From contig OY755239.1 of NCBI GenBank assembly GCA_963576725.1, positions 61,535,453 to 61,599,452 of the forward strand: a stretch of 64,000 nucleotides of DNA, read 5' to 3'. The DNA is from Azorinus chamasolen. Its lineage: Eukaryota; Mollusca; Bivalvia; Cardiida; Solecurtidae. The notes beneath the pieces are model-generated. The model was given only the letters and a program-made list of their open reading frames with translations, was not told the DNA's origin and did no database searches. The position numbers and the translations under genes were made by a program. Of the stretch, positions 1,801 through 12,000 are shown piece by piece (the stretch's first letter is position 1; every line of letters begins with the position of its first letter).

Positions 1801-1984
1801 ATGAACGCAAGTCATTGGAAGGCACTGGTTCATCTTTTTGGCATTTAATAGAAGATCATGAATAAATGATTCTTCTTATCATTCTTATTAAACTGGTTGA
1901 CTAAACCGAAACAACGCGATCACTAGCGAACGTTATATTAGTTTAACCAGTTTAATTGAAAAATATACGAAAGAAAAGTGTTAT

Positions 1985-2132
1985 TTAACCCTATAGGAGC
2001 AAATGCTGTATTTCTCACAATTGTTTCAAACTACAAAATTCAAAATTTTCCTTTTCTCTAGTTAATGCTCCTTTTCGGTAAATTTATTCAAAGAGGTTGT
2101 ATCTAAACATAGCATATGAGGTAATGGGTTAA
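1985..2132 (+). mobile_element. TTAA-4 half-element
   Basis: TTAACCC is joined directly to TATAGGAGCAAATGCT, the exact hairpin centre, and then the normal right half runs to AATGGGTTAA. The left half is missing. Compare 22309-22456. Confidence 0.75.
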
Positions 2133-2135
2133 GAA

Positions 2136-2203
2136 ACCACCTGCCTAAAATATCTAAATCATTCTTTACTAACATTCCCGTGTAGAGAGTTTTTACTGTA
2201 CCT
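2136..2203 (+). mobile_element. POGO-4 right-end fragment
   Basis: CCACCTGCCTAAAATATC to GAGTTTTTACTGTA; follows the TTAA-4 half-element with no gap and lacks its left half. Confidence 0.55.
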
Positions 2204-2293
2204 TCAAATATAGCGCGAGGTCACGTGCACGGGTCTTGCAGTAGGACACTCTGACGACTTCTGCCTAAGTCTGACCGATTCATAGGTATTATT

Positions 2294-3042
2294 CAATCTC
2301 CTTGCAGAGTTGTCGTTCATTACTCTCACATACACCTCTGCGATGGGTTCATGCCAGGAATCTTGGCAAACCCAATAGTTTATGTTTTATGGTTATCCGA
2401 GTCGATAGTTTATATCAAAATAGCCTGAATCGAGAATAAATAGCTTTTATTTTATCATAAAACTGGTAATACAATTTAATTTCAGAGCATTTCTGATGAC
2501 CTATTTTCATGCCGCTTTACGCTTCGATTATTGCATAAATGTAAACAAACAAAATGGAATGATGTCTGCTCAATATTTCGAAAACAGTTTCTACAAACCG
2601 TAGATTCCGAACTTCTTATAAGGGCACTGAAATTCTGCTATAACCCCAAAAGACACACAACTTATTGGGAAATCGCAGTCGTTTGCTTTTCTTCCGTTGA
2701 ACTGTCAACGAAACACACAAAACAATTTACTTTCTGTTTTGCACGAGAGTTACATTGTAGTTTCATTTCGGACTACTTTCTGAGCCAACTACAGAGGTAC
2801 AGTAAAACCCCGCTAATGGGACCACCTAAAAGAGGTATAATTCTGGGTGCTAGATGCAGGTAGTAACTTAATGCAGGGCAAAAGTAATGCAGAAAGCTCC
2901 TAGAGGAGCATTCTGTATTAGTTTTGTCCTGCATTAAGCAACCACCTGCTTATAAAGTCAGCCATGTTTATTCATTAAGTGGTCGAATTAGAGGGGTTCT
3001 ACTGTATATGTAATGTAACCGGGTGTAAGAGAGTGAGGTATA
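2294..3042 (+). repeat. Dispersed repeat R1, copy 1
   Basis: About 540 bp (without the nested MITE), roughly 90% identical by eye to the reverse strand of 21245-21757. Both copies keep an open frame of about 75 codons (DSELLIRALKFCYNPK), but they differ by an upstream indel, so coding is doubtful. I do not recognise the family. Confidence 0.7.
2798..3006 (+). mobile_element. POGO-1 MITE nested in R1
   Basis: CAGTAAAACCCCGCTAATG to TTAGAGGGGTTCTACTG with TA on each side. R1 copy 2 lacks it (CAGAGGTGAATGTAATG), which gives an empty site and confirms the boundaries. Confidence 0.88.
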
Positions 3043-3404
3043 ATTGTGACACAGTCACTAAGTATCAAACACTGCTGTGATGTGCGAATAAGAATTAAAA
3101 TCATTATTATCACTGAACAAATCGAGGTTTTTTTTCAAAGAGAGTTATCATTCTTGAATACATCTCTATCGTCTACTGTCCGTTTTGAGTTACAGTGTAT
3201 ACCCGATGTTTTGTCTATATATGTGATGGTAACGGATCAGTGTCGGCAAAGAATTGAGTCCACCCTAAATCGTCTCAATCGTCCCAAAGTTGTATCGAGT
3301 TTCTTCAGAAGTGTTATTGATCAGCTCACCTTGATAAATGCATCGCTCCTTGCAATCCAGTAGGATTGACATTTCCGAACAAGCTAACACAGCCATGTGA
3401 GTAG

Positions 3405-3546
3405 CAGAGGTCTAGATAAAACGAGTGAACTAAAATATTTTCAAGAATAATCTCTTTTTTCTCCACCAGTCTCTTCGAGTTGTCACTACATAGGGTTTGA
3501 AATGACGATTTTAGTACTTGAGTACGCACGTTTATATGTTGTTCTT
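3405..3546 (+). mobile_element. HP-D MITE, degenerate
   Basis: CAGAGGTCTAGATAA at left and GAGTACGCACGTTTATATG at right; the hairpin is reduced to TCTCTTCGAG plus partial arms. Confidence 0.6.
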
Positions 3547-3586
3547 TGAATAGAGATTATCGTAAGCAACCTATACAATTGTATAA

Positions 3587-3773
3587 TTAACCTTTAGCCT
3601 GCTGAGCAAACTATTTTTACATTTTTTTCACCCACTACATTTTCAAAATTCCAGCTATAATCAGTTAGTCTACCAAAATGCTACCAGGGCATCAAACAGT
3701 TTGGATCCTGATGATACGCCGAGTATTTGCACATGGGTAATCACTCATCCGCCCACAGCAGGCTAAAAATTAA
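3587..3773 (+). mobile_element. TTAA-8 MITE
   Basis: TTAACCTTTAGCCTGCTG to CAGCAGGCTAAAAATTAA, clear terminal inverted repeats. The core hairpin GATGATACGCCGAGT has lost its partner arm. Confidence 0.7.
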
Positions 3774-4214
3774 AGTTGATGCAACACTGGCAGACATCTG
3801 TGAAAACTCCTTCGTTAGCGAGAACATTATATCACTACACAAAATACATTATGTAATAGTACAAACAACATTTAAAGACGGAGATAGTACTGCCACGTCA
3901 GCCCTCGGGACGTGTTGATAAAACTGTCTTGACAATGTTCTGTGTGCACTCAGGAAATGCCATGGCTGTCAAACAACAATTTTAAGACTTGTGGAGGATT
4001 GGAAGCTGGCGTGACAAAAATGAATATATACATGTACCTACATTCTTAATGGGATTGTCTAAAGGTTTTTCCCATTATCTCATGACTTTCTTTTGTTCAA
4101 ACTATTCTCCTGTAACATACCTTTATCGTCACTAAACCTAGTTGAATCCATTCTGAATAACAGAAAACGACATATAACGAATATTAGACATTTTAGACTG
4201 AAATGATTGATGTT

Positions 4215-4461
4215 TTAACCCTTCTCTTGCTGAATTTTTAAATACATTTCTCCTTCTTTACCCATGCCGTTGTATAATTACATATATCTTCATCTGTATG
4301 CGTATTTCGCTGTGCAATCACTGCTGTAGATTGCACTGGTTGCACAATTAACTTCTAAATAGTGCAGACCCTGATTAGACAGCTCCTGCAGGAGCTGTCT
4401 CATCTAGGCCTTCACTATTTACAGATAGGTATATTGACGTGAGTAGCAAGCGAAGGGTTAA
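4215..4461 (+). mobile_element. TTAA-5 MITE
   Basis: TTAACCCTTCTCTTGCTGAA to AGCGAAGGGTTAA. Hairpin GACAGCTCCTGCAGGAGCTGTC within AAATAGTGCAGACCCTGAT arms. Confidence 0.87.
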
Positions 4462-4710
4462 GGGGGAAAGGCAGGTCTTATAATATATTGGTTAAATTGG
4501 TTGGAATGGTGCAAACCCTGACACATGTCAGACTATAACTGTACATCTTACGATGCCTTGGTGTCCTGTCAAAGTTGTCATATTGAAACCCGAACCTCAC
4601 AGGAAGATGAATAACGTGCACGATACAGTACAACGTCAGCAACAAACATTACGAGAGGCAAAGAAATGTCGACACTGCATTCATCACAATGTGACCAGCC
4701 TCCAATGTTA

Positions 4711-4805
4711 TAAAACGTCTGAGTCTGAGATCATTCTAAAGTATCTTATTGGTCAGATTCTGAGCAAGCTCAGAATCTGACCTATCAGATGCTTGAGAAT
4801 GATAT
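4711..4805 (+). mobile_element. HP-G hairpin MITE, interrupted by the composite insertion
   Basis: Hairpin arms GGTCAGATTCTGAGC / GCTCAGAATCTGACC meet near 4772. The outer arm ATCATTCT pairs with AGAATGAT, next to the insertion point. The right remainder resumes at 11609-11640. Related copies lie at 15902-16001 and 56979-57069. Confidence 0.6.
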
Positions 4806-5020
4806 TGTTAGACTGATAAATATTTCGTTATTTACAGTTGATCTCCAGATCATTATCTTACGTGATAAATGTCACTCAGAGCGCCGGATACAATCATATA
4901 CCGGCGGTGGGTGATAGCTATTACGTAATATATCATGAATTAAGATGCGATAAGAATCAAAATAAGCTTGCTAAGATCAGATCCTTTGTGTATAATTGAT
5001 ATGTCAAAAAAGTCACAGGA

Positions 5021-5030
5021 TATATAAAAG
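5021..5030 (+). promoter_or_regulatory. TATA box of LTR-A
   Basis: TATATAAAAG; transcription would be expected to start near 5050, giving a U3/R boundary. The same site recurs at 7261-7270 in the 3' LTR. Confidence 0.6.
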
Positions 5031-5228
5031 GTGTCCCCTGATGCAGGGAGTTACAATTTAGAGTTAGGAAAGGAAACAAGTGTTTAGGCCATGCTAGATT
5101 TCTAGTATTCAGGATATCCTGACGAAATTACTTTACTTTCATACAGATACGTTTTATCTTGGACTTGTTATTTTACTGTTTGTGGATTACCACTGTTATA
5201 CTATACGAACTGGAATTCCAGGATACAT

Positions 5229-5234
5229 AATAAA
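5229..5234 (+). terminator. Polyadenylation signal AATAAA in LTR-A
   Basis: Lies about 200 bp after the TATA box, inside the LTR, as expected for R/U5 processing. Repeated at 7469-7474 in the 3' copy. Confidence 0.5.
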
Positions 5235-5334
5235 CATATAAAATACTATCGGAGCAGTTTTACATCTACCAACTCCATATTCTACAGTCTAACACCTGAT
5301 CGTTCTACAGTTCAACAATTCAGCGTTACTACAG

Positions 5335-5352
5335 TTGGTGGTTGAATCGGGA
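5335..5352 (+). promoter_or_regulatory. Candidate primer binding site
   Basis: TTGGTGGTTGAATCGGGA starts one base after LTR-A and begins with the TGG that pairs with a tRNA 3' CCA. CAGTTGGTGG recurs at 9267-9276 before the third LTR-A copy. The tRNA was not identified. Confidence 0.4.
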
Positions 5353-5499
5353 GTACTCACATATATTTTGTGCTGTACACTTTTTCGGAACTTTCATAAA
5401 GCGAGTTGACTCTACCAATTTGAGAAATTCATATTCCCCATTCAAGTGAGCGGACACTGCCAAATTTGAGCTAAATTCAAATTCTTCCCCAAACTAAGC

Positions 5500-6192
5500 A
5501 TGTTGGATCACCACGTGGATTTTTACTTCGGACATCCAAAGGAACTCGAGGGACAGTTTTGCGGACAATATTCTTACTCCAAAGTGCGACATCGGAATTT
5601 TAACGGTAAAATTCGGCCTCACGTCTTACACGGCATAAGAGATTTTTCTTCTCCGTCGTTACAGCGGGAGAGAAAATTAAAACGTGATCGGGCCAGGATG
5701 ACGGCATTTATTCACCGGAAAACGGCAGAAAACCTACCTTTCAACTGCCTGGAAACTCCTGAACTACTGAAGCTAGGCACCAACAACTCACTTCACCAGA
5801 GACCTCGTGCTGCAGTGCCGATACTTACAGCTACGACGTCAACCCAAACAACAGAGGATATCAACGCGGAACTCACAGATCAAATAAAATTGTCAGAATC
5901 AAGAAAAGACGGACTTCTTGAAATTATTCGTTACATTGAAAGTGAATTACATGAGAAAGAACTCGAAAATGAAAATTTACAGGTGCGACTGGATTTAAGT
6001 ATTCGTCAGCAACGTGAAGCTAACGATATTTCTGATATGTTAGAACGAGAACTTTTAAAAGCCCGTTCTGAAATATCTGATCTTCAAACTCGTTGTCAAC
6101 AAAACCGTGGATACATGTACGATGATCATTCGAACACTAGGAACTTTCATACCTTTCCTCATCGTGGTCGGCGAAATCGGCGCGGGCGATAA
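5500..6192 (+). CDS. 230-aa coiled-coil ORF of the LTR element (Gag-like, unassigned)
   Basis: The only long ORF between the two LTR-A copies; it starts at the first ATG after the leader. Residues about 50-75 hold a basic stretch, PSLQRERKLKRDRARMTAF, reminiscent of the SPSxxxRDxxRxxxF motif common in coiled-coil ORFs of invertebrate retroelements (from memory, not searched). Residues about 120-200 are rich in E, K, L and Q with heptad character (LHEKELENENLQVRL, LERELLKARSEISDLQTR), a probable coiled coil. The C-terminus is basic (HRGRRNRRGR), a plausible nucleic-acid-binding tail. There is no zinc knuckle, protease or reverse transcriptase, so the element must be mobilised in trans. It may be a structural/Gag protein of a non-autonomous element; a captured host fragment is possible. 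Confidence 0.6.
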   Translation: MLDHHVDFYFGHPKELEGQFCGQYSYSKVRHRNFNGKIRPHVLHGIRDFSSPSLQRERKLKRDRARMTAFIHRKTAENLPFNCLETPELLKLGTNNSLHQRPRAAVPILTATTSTQTTEDINAELTDQIKLSESRKDGLLEIIRYIESELHEKELENENLQVRLDLSIRQQREANDISDMLERELLKARSEISDLQTRCQQNRGYMYDDHSNTRNFHTFPHRGRRNRRGR

Positions 6193-7045
6193 CGTGAAAA
6201 TGTCGCCAGCTACATGTGGGATGTTGAATTCCAGTTTCATTGCCAGTTTACTATATACTTGTTACTTTTACATTTGGACGGTGCATACATCTTCAATCTT
6301 ATAGCTTTTTTTAATATGTTTGAATTCTTCAATTCAGTAATTAAACGTTCCATTCTAAATTTAAATTACAGTATTCATTTGTTTGATGTTTTGATATGCA
6401 GTAGAATGATTAACTTTATACTATGTGTTGTTCCAGTGCAATTGTCTTTACATGCATTCATATGCATTGTGTATTTAAAAAGGTATGGTTTATCTTCATG
6501 AGTAAATACTTTCATCAGCATCTGTAATGATATTCAGCATACTGAATTGAAATTTTCTATTACATCCATGCTTGTTCTGCAGATTGAGGCAAGTTTGCAT
6601 CTCTACTTTCTCTACGGGACAAGTGCGCTCCCTAAGTTTATAGTTTTTTACTTTAATTCAAAAATATCATTTATGTATTCCACTTCACGTGGGGACATTT
6701 ATATTTGCAATTACTTGTTTACTTTTACGATACATTGCTCCCGTGTTTCATATAACGTTCAGGAACGGTTTCGGTTCCCGTTATAGATTTAAATGCTTTA
6801 CTACATGGCCCGTGTGTTGGTCATTTATTTGTCTGATATTGCAAAATGATTAACCTACGAAGGGAATACATAACTAATCCATTCTGTATATCGTTTATGC
6901 TTTGAACATTTATGTAATTTGCGTTATATTTCACACGTTGAGAATACAGAAAAAAAATGTTGAAATATTAATTGCATGAAAATATAATTGATGTTCTTCA
7001 AATTTTAAATTGTGGGGACACAATCTTTTCTGGAATGGTAGGAAT
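6193..7045 (+). other. Non-coding 3' internal region of the LTR element
   Basis: 853 bp, AT-rich, with no ORF resembling polymerase. It ends in a purine-rich tract (7031-7044, TGGAATGGTAGGAA) directly before the 3' LTR, a plausible polypurine tract for plus-strand priming. Confidence 0.5.
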
Positions 7046-7573
7046 TGTTAGACTGATAAATATTTCGTTATTTACAGTTGATCTCCAGATCATTATCTTA
7101 CGTGATAAATGTCACTCAGAGCGCCGGATACAATCATATACCGGCGGTGGGTGATAGCTATTACGTAATATATCATGAATTAAGATGCGATAAGAATCAA
7201 AATAAGCTTGCTAAGATCAGATCCTTTGTGTATAATTGATATGTCAAAAAAGTCACAGGATATATAAAAGGTGTCCCCTGATGCAGGGAGTTACAATTTA
7301 GAGTTAGGAAAGGAAACAAGTGTTTAGGCCATGCTAGATTTCTAGTATTCAGGATATCCTGACGAAATTACTTTACTTTCATACAGATACGTTTTATCTT
7401 GGACTTGTTATTTTACTGTTTGTGGATTACCACTGTTATACTATACGAACTGGAATTCCAGGATACATAATAAACATATAAAATACTATCGGAGCAGTTT
7501 TACATCTACCAACTCCATATTCTACAGTCTAACACCTGATCGTTCTACAGTTCAACAATTCAGCGTTACTACA
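7046..7573 (+). repeat. LTR-A, 3' copy
   Basis: Matches 4806-5333 base for base by eye. It is followed at once by GTTACATAG, the start of the palindrome arm, not by host flank or a target duplication. This is the first sign that the insertion did not end at this LTR. Confidence 0.88.
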
Positions 7574-9590
7574 GTTACATAGATGATATTCACAATAACA
7601 GATAATGAAGGAAGAAGGGGTTTATATTGAAGTATTTATGTATTTATTAAACAATAATTTAAAGTATAAAGTTCACTATTAAGTATTTATTAAACAAATG
7701 AGTTAAAGTATAATTTACATATATAAGCCACTACAGGCTGATAGTTTTAATACAGATCATTGAAATGAAATAGATTAACTGATTCCAACATCTTCAAATA
7801 TCATCAGTTGTGTAATCTAGATAGATTTAATACTGATCAGTTTCCGTGGTCAGCTTATAAGATAGGGTGTTTGGTGATCGTGCTAAATTCCTAAGTACAA
7901 TAAAACCTGTAGATATTTTTAATTACTTTGCCTTCAGCGGATGGCTAAATAGACTGTCCATTGTGTGTGTAAGCTCCATTGACAATGATATAGATAGTAG
8001 ATACTTTCTTACGCCTTCGGGATATTGAATTCTGCCCTTAAAATTTCATTCTCTGACATCTTTAGCAGATTTATATTTAGATAGGTAGAAGGCCGATCTT
8101 TCACAAAAGCACAGGCATTACTTAGAAAGACCGGCTGACATTTTTATTACAACATCTAACATAAATTGTATTTGAAAATCTTCAAGTGTATATTAGAAAT
8201 CGATTGGCTGATCGTGGCCCCTTCGACACGCCTATTTTTAAGGATCCACAAATCGCAGTTATAATTCGGCACCGTGATTTGCTTAATTGGTTTTAGTCAC
8301 GTGACTGGTAAATTAAATAAATGAGCAGGGTCTACAAGTTATGATCACTTGCCTAGTAACCAGTTGTGTGAAATTAAGTAAAGTTTATAAACGGATTTTG
8401 GATTCCTTATTACTACAGGTTAGTGTTTATCTGTTTGTATTTTAGAGGAGCTCAGTACTTCACTGAAGTCCTGAATAATAAATTGGTATTCTACATGTCT
8501 GAATTGTAACAATGTTGCATATAAATTAATTAATATTTCAGTTATCTATAAGTGTTCATATTATTTGTATTTACTGAATTAATATTCAAAGAATCATCAT
8601 ATAGGTATACACATACATTAATTAAGTGTTCAGTGAGAACACTTAATTATTTATTTGTGTGCCTAAAGATAATTAGACTGGCATAGGAATTTCAAATAGT
8701 TAATTAGAATTTAGAGCAACTGTGCATACATATAATTGATGATTTATAATATGTTCTTATACTGTTTGCAAAGTTACCTTTTCTTATTATGAGGGGAATT
8801 AATGGACTCATACTACAAGCTATCATGTAAATAGAATTCTGATATTCATTGAGCTAATTCGTATCACGAATTACCGGTGGTCTTTATATGATAGGTATTT
8901 TATTATCTGGTAACTTTGTGTGCGAGTGTTATCGTTGTGCATGTATGAGTTACGGTTATACATTAACCGCTCATAGTAATTTGGGAATTTAACTGTTCCG
9001 GTATTAATTATATTTGACGAGACTGGTGTTTACATAACAAATTTCTGTTATATGAACATGCACAATGATACGCTAGCAAATAGAACTATTATTGTATTGT
9101 AACGAAACAAGTTATGATCACTTGCCTAGTAACCAGTTGTGTGAAATTATGTAAAGTTTATAAACGGATTTTGGATTCCTTATTACTACAGACACGTTAG
9201 ACCCCCGGTACCTACTGCAAAGCGAGTAACCTCCCCATTAATTCAACATCGATAACAGCGGTCTAACAGTTGGTGGAGATTGTTAGACTGATAAATATTT
9301 CGTTATTTACAGTTGATCTCCAGATCATTATCTTACGTGATAAATGTCACTCAGAGCGCCGGATACAATCATATACCGGCGGTGGGTGATAGCTATTACG
9401 TAATATATCATGAATTAAGATGCGATAAGAATCAAAATAAGCTTGCTAAGATCAGATCCTTTGTGTATAATTGATATGTCAAAAAAGTCACAGGATATAT
9501 AAAAGGTGTCCCCTGATGCAGGGAGTTACAATTTAGAGTTAGGAAAGGAAACAAGTGTTTAGGCCATGCTAGATTTCTAGTATTCAGGAT
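7574..9590 (+). repeat. Left arm of 4-kb palindrome
   Basis: 2,017 bp, mirrored with no spacer by 9591-11607 (centre between 9590 and 9591). Order: LTR-Y (7574-8417), about 690 bp of internal sequence, an 85-bp repeat of the LTR-Y end (9107-9191), 89 bp, then the first 310 bp of LTR-A (9281-9590). One arm mismatch was found, T9150 against T10031 (A when complemented). Confidence 0.9.
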
Positions 9591-11607
9591 ATCCTGAATA
9601 CTAGAAATCTAGCATGGCCTAAACACTTGTTTCCTTTCCTAACTCTAAATTGTAACTCCCTGCATCAGGGGACACCTTTTATATATCCTGTGACTTTTTT
9701 GACATATCAATTATACACAAAGGATCTGATCTTAGCAAGCTTATTTTGATTCTTATCGCATCTTAATTCATGATATATTACGTAATAGCTATCACCCACC
9801 GCCGGTATATGATTGTATCCGGCGCTCTGAGTGACATTTATCACGTAAGATAATGATCTGGAGATCAACTGTAAATAACGAAATATTTATCAGTCTAACA
9901 ATCTCCACCAACTGTTAGACCGCTGTTATCGATGTTGAATTAATGGGGAGGTTACTCGCTTTGCAGTAGGTACCGGGGGTCTAACGTGTCTGTAGTAATA
10001 AGGAATCCAAAATCCGTTTATAAACTTTACTTAATTTCACACAACTGGTTACTAGGCAAGTGATCATAACTTGTTTCGTTACAATACAATAATAGTTCTA
10101 TTTGCTAGCGTATCATTGTGCATGTTCATATAACAGAAATTTGTTATGTAAACACCAGTCTCGTCAAATATAATTAATACCGGAACAGTTAAATTCCCAA
10201 ATTACTATGAGCGGTTAATGTATAACCGTAACTCATACATGCACAACGATAACACTCGCACACAAAGTTACCAGATAATAAAATACCTATCATATAAAGA
10301 CCACCGGTAATTCGTGATACGAATTAGCTCAATGAATATCAGAATTCTATTTACATGATAGCTTGTAGTATGAGTCCATTAATTCCCCTCATAATAAGAA
10401 AAGGTAACTTTGCAAACAGTATAAGAACATATTATAAATCATCAATTATATGTATGCACAGTTGCTCTAAATTCTAATTAACTATTTGAAATTCCTATGC
10501 CAGTCTAATTATCTTTAGGCACACAAATAAATAATTAAGTGTTCTCACTGAACACTTAATTAATGTATGTGTATACCTATATGATGATTCTTTGAATATT
10601 AATTCAGTAAATACAAATAATATGAACACTTATAGATAACTGAAATATTAATTAATTTATATGCAACATTGTTACAATTCAGACATGTAGAATACCAATT
10701 TATTATTCAGGACTTCAGTGAAGTACTGAGCTCCTCTAAAATACAAACAGATAAACACTAACCTGTAGTAATAAGGAATCCAAAATCCGTTTATAAACTT
10801 TACTTAATTTCACACAACTGGTTACTAGGCAAGTGATCATAACTTGTAGACCCTGCTCATTTATTTAATTTACCAGTCACGTGACTAAAACCAATTAAGC
10901 AAATCACGGTGCCGAATTATAACTGCGATTTGTGGATCCTTAAAAATAGGCGTGTCGAAGGGGCCACGATCAGCCAATCGATTTCTAATATACACTTGAA
11001 GATTTTCAAATACAATTTATGTTAGATGTTGTAATAAAAATGTCAGCCGGTCTTTCTAAGTAATGCCTGTGCTTTTGTGAAAGATCGGCCTTCTACCTAT
11101 CTAAATATAAATCTGCTAAAGATGTCAGAGAATGAAATTTTAAGGGCAGAATTCAATATCCCGAAGGCGTAAGAAAGTATCTACTATCTATATCATTGTC
11201 AATGGAGCTTACACACACAATGGACAGTCTATTTAGCCATCCGCTGAAGGCAAAGTAATTAAAAATATCTACAGGTTTTATTGTACTTAGGAATTTAGCA
11301 CGATCACCAAACACCCTATCTTATAAGCTGACCACGGAAACTGATCAGTATTAAATCTATCTAGATTACACAACTGATGATATTTGAAGATGTTGGAATC
11401 AGTTAATCTATTTCATTTCAATGATCTGTATTAAAACTATCAGCCTGTAGTGGCTTATATATGTAAATTATACTTTAACTCATTTGTTTAATAAATACTT
11501 AATAGTGAACTTTATACTTTAAATTATTGTTTAATAAATACATAAATACTTCAATATAAACCCCTTCTTCCTTCATTATCTGTTATTGTGAATATCATCT
11601 ATGTAAC
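9591..11607 (-). repeat. Right arm of 4-kb palindrome
   Basis: Reverse complement of 7574-9590 in every segment compared, apart from position 10031. Its outer end is the start of LTR-Y in inverted orientation, TGTTACATAG read on the minus strand, which forms the right terminus of the inserted composite. Confidence 0.9.
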
Positions 11608-11608
11608 A
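10764..11608 (-). repeat. LTR-Y, putative second LTR family (inverted copy)
   Basis: 845 bp reading TGTTACATAG...TTATTACTACA on the minus strand: TG...CA ends, and the same TGTTA and TTACTACA termini as LTR-A with a different body. The left-arm copy is 7574-8417. An 85-bp piece of its 3' end recurs at 9107-9191. Its identity as an LTR is inferred from termini only. Confidence 0.45.
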
Positions 11609-12000
11609 ATATCAAATTCAGGCAAAAAGTTTTATAACCTCGGGACCTGGGTCTAATGCGTAGTACTGTGTTTTTTTTATCCCTGGGCGGTTGAATAGTT
11701 ACACGGACTAATGCATTCAATGCATGAAGATACCTCACCCTCACATGTTTCACTCTTAATTATTCTTCAGCGACATCTTGTTGTTTTCCTTTCTTTTGTT
11801 TTGTCTTTTATCTGCTTTCCTTAGAATAATTTATAAGACCGTTTCCTTTTCCGTAATAATCCACGGAAAGAAAGGTCACTAAACTGGCCTTACCTAATTC
11901 AATAATCAATAATCTAAGGAAAATATTCGTATCTTAGAGCTTTGTCATTTGCTTCAGATCTCGTAGTAAACTCTTAATGTGCGTGAACCGAGTAAAAATA
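11609..12000. other. Remainder of HP-G, then unique AT-rich sequence
   Basis: The first 35 bp continue the HP-G arm split by the composite. The rest shows no ORF, repeat or motif that I recognise. Confidence 0.4.

Follow-up and report, generated by a model that had tools for sequence, protein, structure and literature searches.

Cells do not maintain long palindromes without a spacer stably, and chromosome breaks are usually taken to be the source of such sequences. The ribosomal DNA palindrome of Tetrahymena is a related case of inverted duplication, and the large inverted duplications of unintegrated retroviral DNA are self-primed foldback products of reverse transcription. In yeast, foldback inversions at double-strand breaks are described as beginning at natural inverted repeats of 3-15 bp (PMC10622511). 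Here we describe a palindrome made of retroelement DNA in the bivalve Azorinus chamasolen, within a stretch of 64,000 nucleotides (hereafter the window) at C5:61535453-61599452 of the 1.72-Gb genome. At 4802-11612 of this window, a 2.77-kb long terminal repeat (LTR) element, LTR-A, is fused to a near-perfect 4-kb palindrome derived from two element families, the second of which we call LTR-Y. We think it probable that this composite is a single integration of an abnormal complementary DNA (cDNA), in which a full LTR-A was joined to a snap-back palindrome of a Y LTR, its primer-binding site, and a piece of LTR-A. Using a repeat finder and scripts, we recovered every feature of the original prediction at the coordinates it had claimed. 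Not foreseen in that prediction were the env-bearing Ty3-type element to which the Y LTR belongs, the piece of LTR-A in the arms, and a second two-family hybrid with an inverted cap. The parts of the locus, among them the two halves of an interrupted miniature inverted-repeat transposable element (MITE), HP-G, and an open reading frame (ORF), are as follows:

4700..4805, forward: MITE HP-G, interrupted, left half, ending in the first duplication copy
4802..4805, no strand: target-site duplication ATAT, left copy
4806..5333, forward: 5' LTR-A, TGTTAG...ACTACA, 528 bp
5334..7045, forward: LTR-A internal region
5500..6192, forward: 230-aa ORF, no Pfam match
7046..7573, forward: 3' LTR-A, identical to the 5' LTR
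7569..7582, forward: junction J1, LTR-A ..CTACA to Y (T)GTTACATAG; GTT at 7574-7576 ambiguous
7574..9590, forward: left palindrome arm, 2,017 bp
7574..9268, forward: LTR-Y, left copy, first T lost
9269..9280, forward: junction J2, GT, Y primer-binding site TGGTGGAGA and one T, then LTR-A
9281..9590, forward: first 310 bp of LTR-A, left copy
9584..9597, no strand: palindrome centre TCAGGATATCCTGA, also at 5109-5122 and 7349-7362
9591..11607, reverse: right palindrome arm, with LTR-A piece, J2 and LTR-Y, all inverted
9913..11608, reverse: LTR-Y, right copy, inverted, exact 5' terminus TGTTAC at 11603-11608
11609..11612, no strand: target-site duplication ATAT, right copy
11609..11656, forward: MITE HP-G, interrupted, right half

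The composite as a whole is bounded by one target-site duplication. At its right end GTAACA (to 11608) is followed by ATAT at 11609-11612, and the matching ATAT at 4802-4805 precedes the left TGTTAG, both as had been described. This pair fits only the entire composite; LTR-A by itself would be flanked by ATAT and GTTA, and the palindrome by itself by TACA and ATAT. When both flanks and a single ATAT were compared with HP-G copies, the alignment ran across the join without a gap in 8/8 copies (L043-L050, from 10 loci fetched of 40 matches, leaving out L041, which is the window, and L042, whose match is located farther right), with 33-37 of 40 bases identical there. The right flank is therefore the missing part of the MITE, which it had been said only to resemble, and because the flanks rejoin gaplessly in all eight copies and ATAT flanks the composite, one insertion splitting one MITE is most likely. 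The duplication around the entire insert is of the 4-bp size typical of the families involved, and the paralogous MITE copies supply an uninterrupted empty site. Among the copies tested, exact 4-bp duplications flank 9 of 10 from the LTR-A family and 7 of 9 from the LTR-Y family; L036 and L038 lack one, as does the LTR-A locus L030, and L052 and L055 (both ends not present) and L035 (which continues past the 5' LTR) were left out. Both outer ends are 5' LTR ends pointing outward, TGTTAG of LTR-A and the exact TGTTAC of LTR-Y. They are thus the U3 ends of two different families rather than the U3 and U5 of the same element, and the composite is therefore not an ordinary LTR-retrotransposon insertion. 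Entry as one piece through these two ends is the best fit to the single 4-bp duplication and the cleanly split MITE, in line with the original prediction. The full-length right flank has a single occurrence in the assembly, and therefore no second haplotype was found.

The palindrome arms are complementary at 2,016 of 2,017 positions and meet with zero spacer. Two 2-kb arms had been claimed and are present, while their description as perfect was slightly too strong. The only mismatch, T instead of A at left-arm position 9150, lies in the second of two 85-bp direct repeats of the left LTR-Y copy (8334-8418 and 9107-9191), and the remaining three copies of this repeat carry A. Toward the centre, each arm runs through LTR-Y, GT, TGGTGGAGA, a single T, and then LTR-A bases 1-310. 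The centre, TCAGGATATCCTGA, is a natural 14-bp palindrome of LTR-A and the single longest among 2,235 possible centres in the parent composed of Y, primer site, and LTR-A; the palindrome is thus centred on a pre-existing short inverted repeat. A 12-bp core of TCAGGATATCCTGA is kept in 11 of 12 other LTR-A loci examined, and the finished centre occurs once in the genome, allowing up to 3 mismatches. For single-stranded TCAGGATATCCTGA, folding predicts a 5-bp stem closed by an ATAT loop, the structure required of a 3' end that is to snap back and be extended along the strand it belongs to. Because no longer natural palindrome exists in the parent, the position of the centre strengthens the foldback part of the earlier proposal. 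Use of the product by an integrase as one linear substrate we still infer, as two distinct molecules, captured together by an integrase complex and sealed later, would give an identical sequence.

The junctions bear on the order of events. At J1, CTACA meets GTTACATAG, which is LTR-Y bases 2-10, directly at 7573/7574; there is no host DNA between them, as had been noted. A genome search for other junctions of the LTR-A 3' end with GTTACATAG, which had been suggested as a check, returned only J1, with up to 2 mismatches allowed. The join reads CTACA-GT-T.., where GT represents the two bases separating CA from the primer site; judging from the known reaction, an integrase would trim these two bases. 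J1 could also represent a 3-bp overlap of both parents and, taken alone, is no proof. At J2, the T between Y GGAGA and TGTTAG is not Y sequence (four other Y-type copies read GAGAATC) and matches the base just ahead of TGTTAG in AAT-TGTTAG, the sequence ahead of LTR-A within its own element. The right outer end is the full Y terminus (A at 11608), while the left Y copy starts GTTACATAG after A, not T. Because the right end carries a true Y terminus absent from J1, copying through J1 did not give rise to the right arm; most likely, therefore, a palindrome with real Y ends preceded the joining to LTR-A. Moreover, the cut at both outer ends falls exactly at TG, whereas the inner joins fit unprocessed cDNA ends, a pattern that points to a molecule assembled before integration.

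The processed outer ends could also be produced if one integrase complex paired the U3 of an LTR-A cDNA with the U3 of a separate Y-A hairpin or palindrome and integrated both in the MITE, with host end joining then linking the free U5 end of LTR-A to the inner palindrome end. In vitro, integrase is known to pair two ends that are separate. Such an event would account for exact outer ends together with an inner Y end that is short of its first base, and for the 2-3 bases shared at J1, as end joining would leave them. It demands, on the other hand, that the chromosome break stay open and then be repaired with the right partner, and the data offer nothing positive to distinguish it from a pre-joined molecule. 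We regard it as unlikely, and prefer a pre-joined linear molecule over two molecules caught by one integrase complex.

For the pre-joined molecule, we hypothesize the following sequence of events. First, A and Y sequences would have been joined, likely as cDNAs made together, by a template switch or by end joining of unprocessed ends; the join of Y, primer site, and A itself is seen directly. Second, a 3' end inside the LTR-A piece would have folded at TCAGGATATCCTGA and been copied back to the Y end to yield the palindrome, a step that the position of the centre strongly supports. Third, the Y end of the palindrome was likely linked through 2-3 shared bases (GTT) to U5 of a full LTR-A cDNA, with loss of at least the first T. 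Finally, an integrase, likely from a Y-type element, would have inserted the product via A-U3 and Y-U3 with a 4-bp duplication, which is supported by the exact ends, the duplication, and the split MITE.

A stepwise chromosomal origin is far less probable. LTR-A could have inserted first, followed by a palindromic molecule at its edge with a small deletion, or a chromosomal foldback could have taken place after insertion; nested insertion and inversion have apparently occurred in the LTR-A family, at a C8 array with a CCAG/CTGG pair (L028). A chromosomal foldback would nevertheless put flanking DNA in both arms, whereas the right arm stops exactly at the Y terminus and is followed by ATAT and the MITE half. 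A second insertion would, for its part, require an identical ATAT and a 5-base loss, and there is no age difference between the LTR pair (0/531) and the arms (1/2,017). An assembly or library artefact, whether a foldback read or a misjoin, is unlikely and the slimmest of the alternatives: libraries are known to yield palindromic reads that were left unsplit, but an artefact is not expected to stop precisely at an LTR terminus, beside a 4-bp duplication that matches and the other half of the split MITE. In addition, one arm has a private base at 9150.

We also searched for a nested genomic A-in-Y parent, and none was found. Among the 8 exact matches to TAACAGTTGGTNGAGA, only the two arms continue into LTR-A TGTTAG; two primer-site matches lack an adjacent Y LTR (L056 and L061), and the remaining four are Y-type copies that continue otherwise (L057, L058, L062, and L063). 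This primer-site search used an exact pattern, which a diverged nested locus would escape. By eye, LTR-A and LTR-Y matches do not meet outside the window (for LTR-A, among the 40 scored of 383 candidates), and neither match list contains C4:49.94 Mb, the position of a second hybrid described below. J1 and the centre occur once each, and J2 in the two arms only (exact primer-site pattern), unlike a multi-copy foldback element.

The two LTR-A copies of the composite show 0 differences over 531 shared bases, and the order of LTR-A, ORF, and identical LTR-A is as had been described. In the interior, GT is followed by a primer-binding site (TGGTGG.., from 5336) that starts two bases past CA, the 230-aa ORF, and the purine tract GGTAGGAAT ending at 7045. 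Only two interior ORFs of at least 80 aa are present, of 230 aa and 95 aa. A protein search with the 230-aa ORF, which has no match in Pfam, yielded three weak unnamed matches; the ORF is full-length at 99% in L023, L024, and L025, split in two in L026, and at 71% in the older copy L028. We take the element to be similar to terminal-repeat retrotransposons in miniature (TRIM-like). Besides one solo LTR at 99.8%, four more full copies were examined, with LTRs at 99.4-100% and interiors at 97.0-99.9%, and because of this high identity the family is probably young. Other arrangements of LTR-A were also observed. A tandem array at L052 (C13:76871501-76879500) contains four copies of LTR-A positions 1-329 with a spacing of 1.9-2.4 kb. 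At L030 (C16:74519001-74523000), positions 2020-2102 show LTR-A preceded by its purine tract GGTAGGAAT together with 32 bp of LTR-A (positions 11-42) in inverted orientation; with no 4-bp duplication, this is perhaps a small foldback at a cDNA end.

LTR-Y is a genuine, separate LTR family with 41 genome matches, as the original prediction had supposed in treating it as an LTR. The possibility that LTR-A and LTR-Y are variants of one LTR was rejected, since no useful alignment exists between them. On C19, a distance of 9.6 kb separates two LTR-Y copies that each match the palindrome arm at 99% identity. The element to which they belong (L021/L022, C19:5597501-5612500) has a pol ORF of 1358 aa as well as a Baculo_F-like ORF, which together encode an envelope protein of the Baculo_F-like type and domains of protease, reverse transcriptase, RNase H, and integrase. 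These domains point to Y being an errantivirus-like Ty3 element. The C19 pair has no 4-bp duplication (ATTT vs GTTT), and the start of its 3' LTR differs from the 5' LTR over ~25 bp. Side observations on this family include an LTR length polymorphism, the presence or absence of a ~773-bp unit bounded by the 85-bp direct repeats (window 8334-9191, L031-L040). One solo LTR-Y with matching flanks occurs on four contigs, mostly near contig ends (L032, L033, L037, and L038), and is apparently part of a shared duplicated segment, possibly subtelomeric. At L057 (C3:63673785), a shortened Y-type LTR is followed by the primer-site stretch CAGTTGGTCGAGAATC twice.

A second, older Y/A hybrid was identified on C4 (L064 with L066, C4:49932501-49945500), with the 4-bp GCAG on both sides. 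In the sense of the element, it consists of GCAG, an inverted 152-bp LTR-Y piece that stops exactly at the U5 terminus, positions 1073-1696 of LTR-Y, a primer site resembling that of Y (GTTGGTGGAGAATCC), A interior, and LTR-A (91.5%) ending in CTACA, followed by GCAG. The A interior is interrupted by ~4 kb that would read like a long interspersed nuclear element (LINE). The switch from Y to A lies at the primer-binding site, which is where plus-strand transfer takes place. The composite and the C4 hybrid are apparently two independent insertions, each with a Y LTR, primer site, and A, an inverted Y end, and 4-bp duplications; the outer ends are two U3 in the composite and two U5 at C4. It is possible, if somewhat doubtful, that families sharing particles repeatedly make mixed cDNAs with foldback or inverted LTR ends, which their integrase then treats as normal substrates and inserts via such mismatched ends. 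This would be an integrase-driven route by which kilobase palindromes enter chromosomes. A screen for inverted pieces flagged 2 of 25 loci (L028 and L064), and did not flag the short hairpin of L030. The C8 array L028 initially suggested a concatenated cDNA, partly inverted and enclosed by a single CATG duplication, and was rejected as a precedent: because its inverted part is bounded by CTGG/CCAG from the A interior, it is explained by nested insertion and inversion between inverted LTRs. At positions 1849-7447 of this locus (C8:70870001-70879000), nested LTR-A elements carry CATG outside and CTGG/CCAG inside, likely reflecting insertion of A into A, then inversion.

Several observations weigh against a pre-joined foldback cDNA at the composite. 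The hairpin at the centre is weak, with -2.8 kcal/mol and a z of -1.28 in a 41-nt stretch; a 33-nt stretch that includes another hairpin gives -4 kcal/mol and a z of -2.16. J1 is also compatible with microhomology joining over 2-3 bp, or with chance. The assembly yielded no donor Y in which this very LTR and primer site are combined; the best LTR match is 99%, and the site TGGTGGAGA occurs elsewhere only at C4 (exact pattern). Direct end-to-end joins of LTR-A (head-to-tail, U3-U3, and U5-U5) gave 0 matches in a search of exact ends, which diverged joins would escape, and because of this such joins seem to be rare. Four of the nine LTR-Y copies tested for duplications represent one duplicated event, which reduces the count to 5 of 6 events. 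At C4, 501 bp lie between the inverted pieces and no palindrome marks their centre, and C4 therefore does not show snap-back. Finally, the structure is known from the assembly of one individual alone.

The locus points to by-products of reverse transcription, inserted by integrase, as a source of long palindromes without a spacer, and suggests that integrase can pair LTR ends from two families, and two U3 ends, in vivo. Its signature, consisting of a natural palindrome at the centre, exact outer ends, and unprocessed inner ends, could be used for scanning other genomes.

A literature search covering titles and the beginnings of abstracts, mostly without subscription journals, found no account of integrated palindromic LTR cDNA among the papers listed. 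Like an ordinary non-autonomous LTR retrotransposon, the composite has TG...CA LTRs, a primer site after CA and GT, a purine tract, and a 4-bp duplication; it is unlike one in adding a palindrome and the LTR of a second family, with the U3s of different families as outer ends. It shares self-primed foldback with the inverted duplications of unintegrated retroviral DNA, from which it differs in being apparently integrated and in involving two families. The term self-prim is absent from the available text of PMC12789967. Autointegration and end-joined circles of Ty1 and retroviruses (PMC4751563) likewise involve cDNA ends joining each other or cDNA, but those products are circular, whereas the composite is linear, derived from two families, and flanked by a duplication. 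Tandem Cassandra arrays (PMC7215508) are similarly multi-unit LTR elements, from a family said to be without gag, pol, and env, but are tandem and not palindromic. The yeast foldback inversions (PMC10622511) are alike in that the palindrome is centred on a short natural inverted repeat; while those inversions duplicate chromosomal DNA, the arms of the composite consist of retroelement DNA only and end at an LTR terminus.

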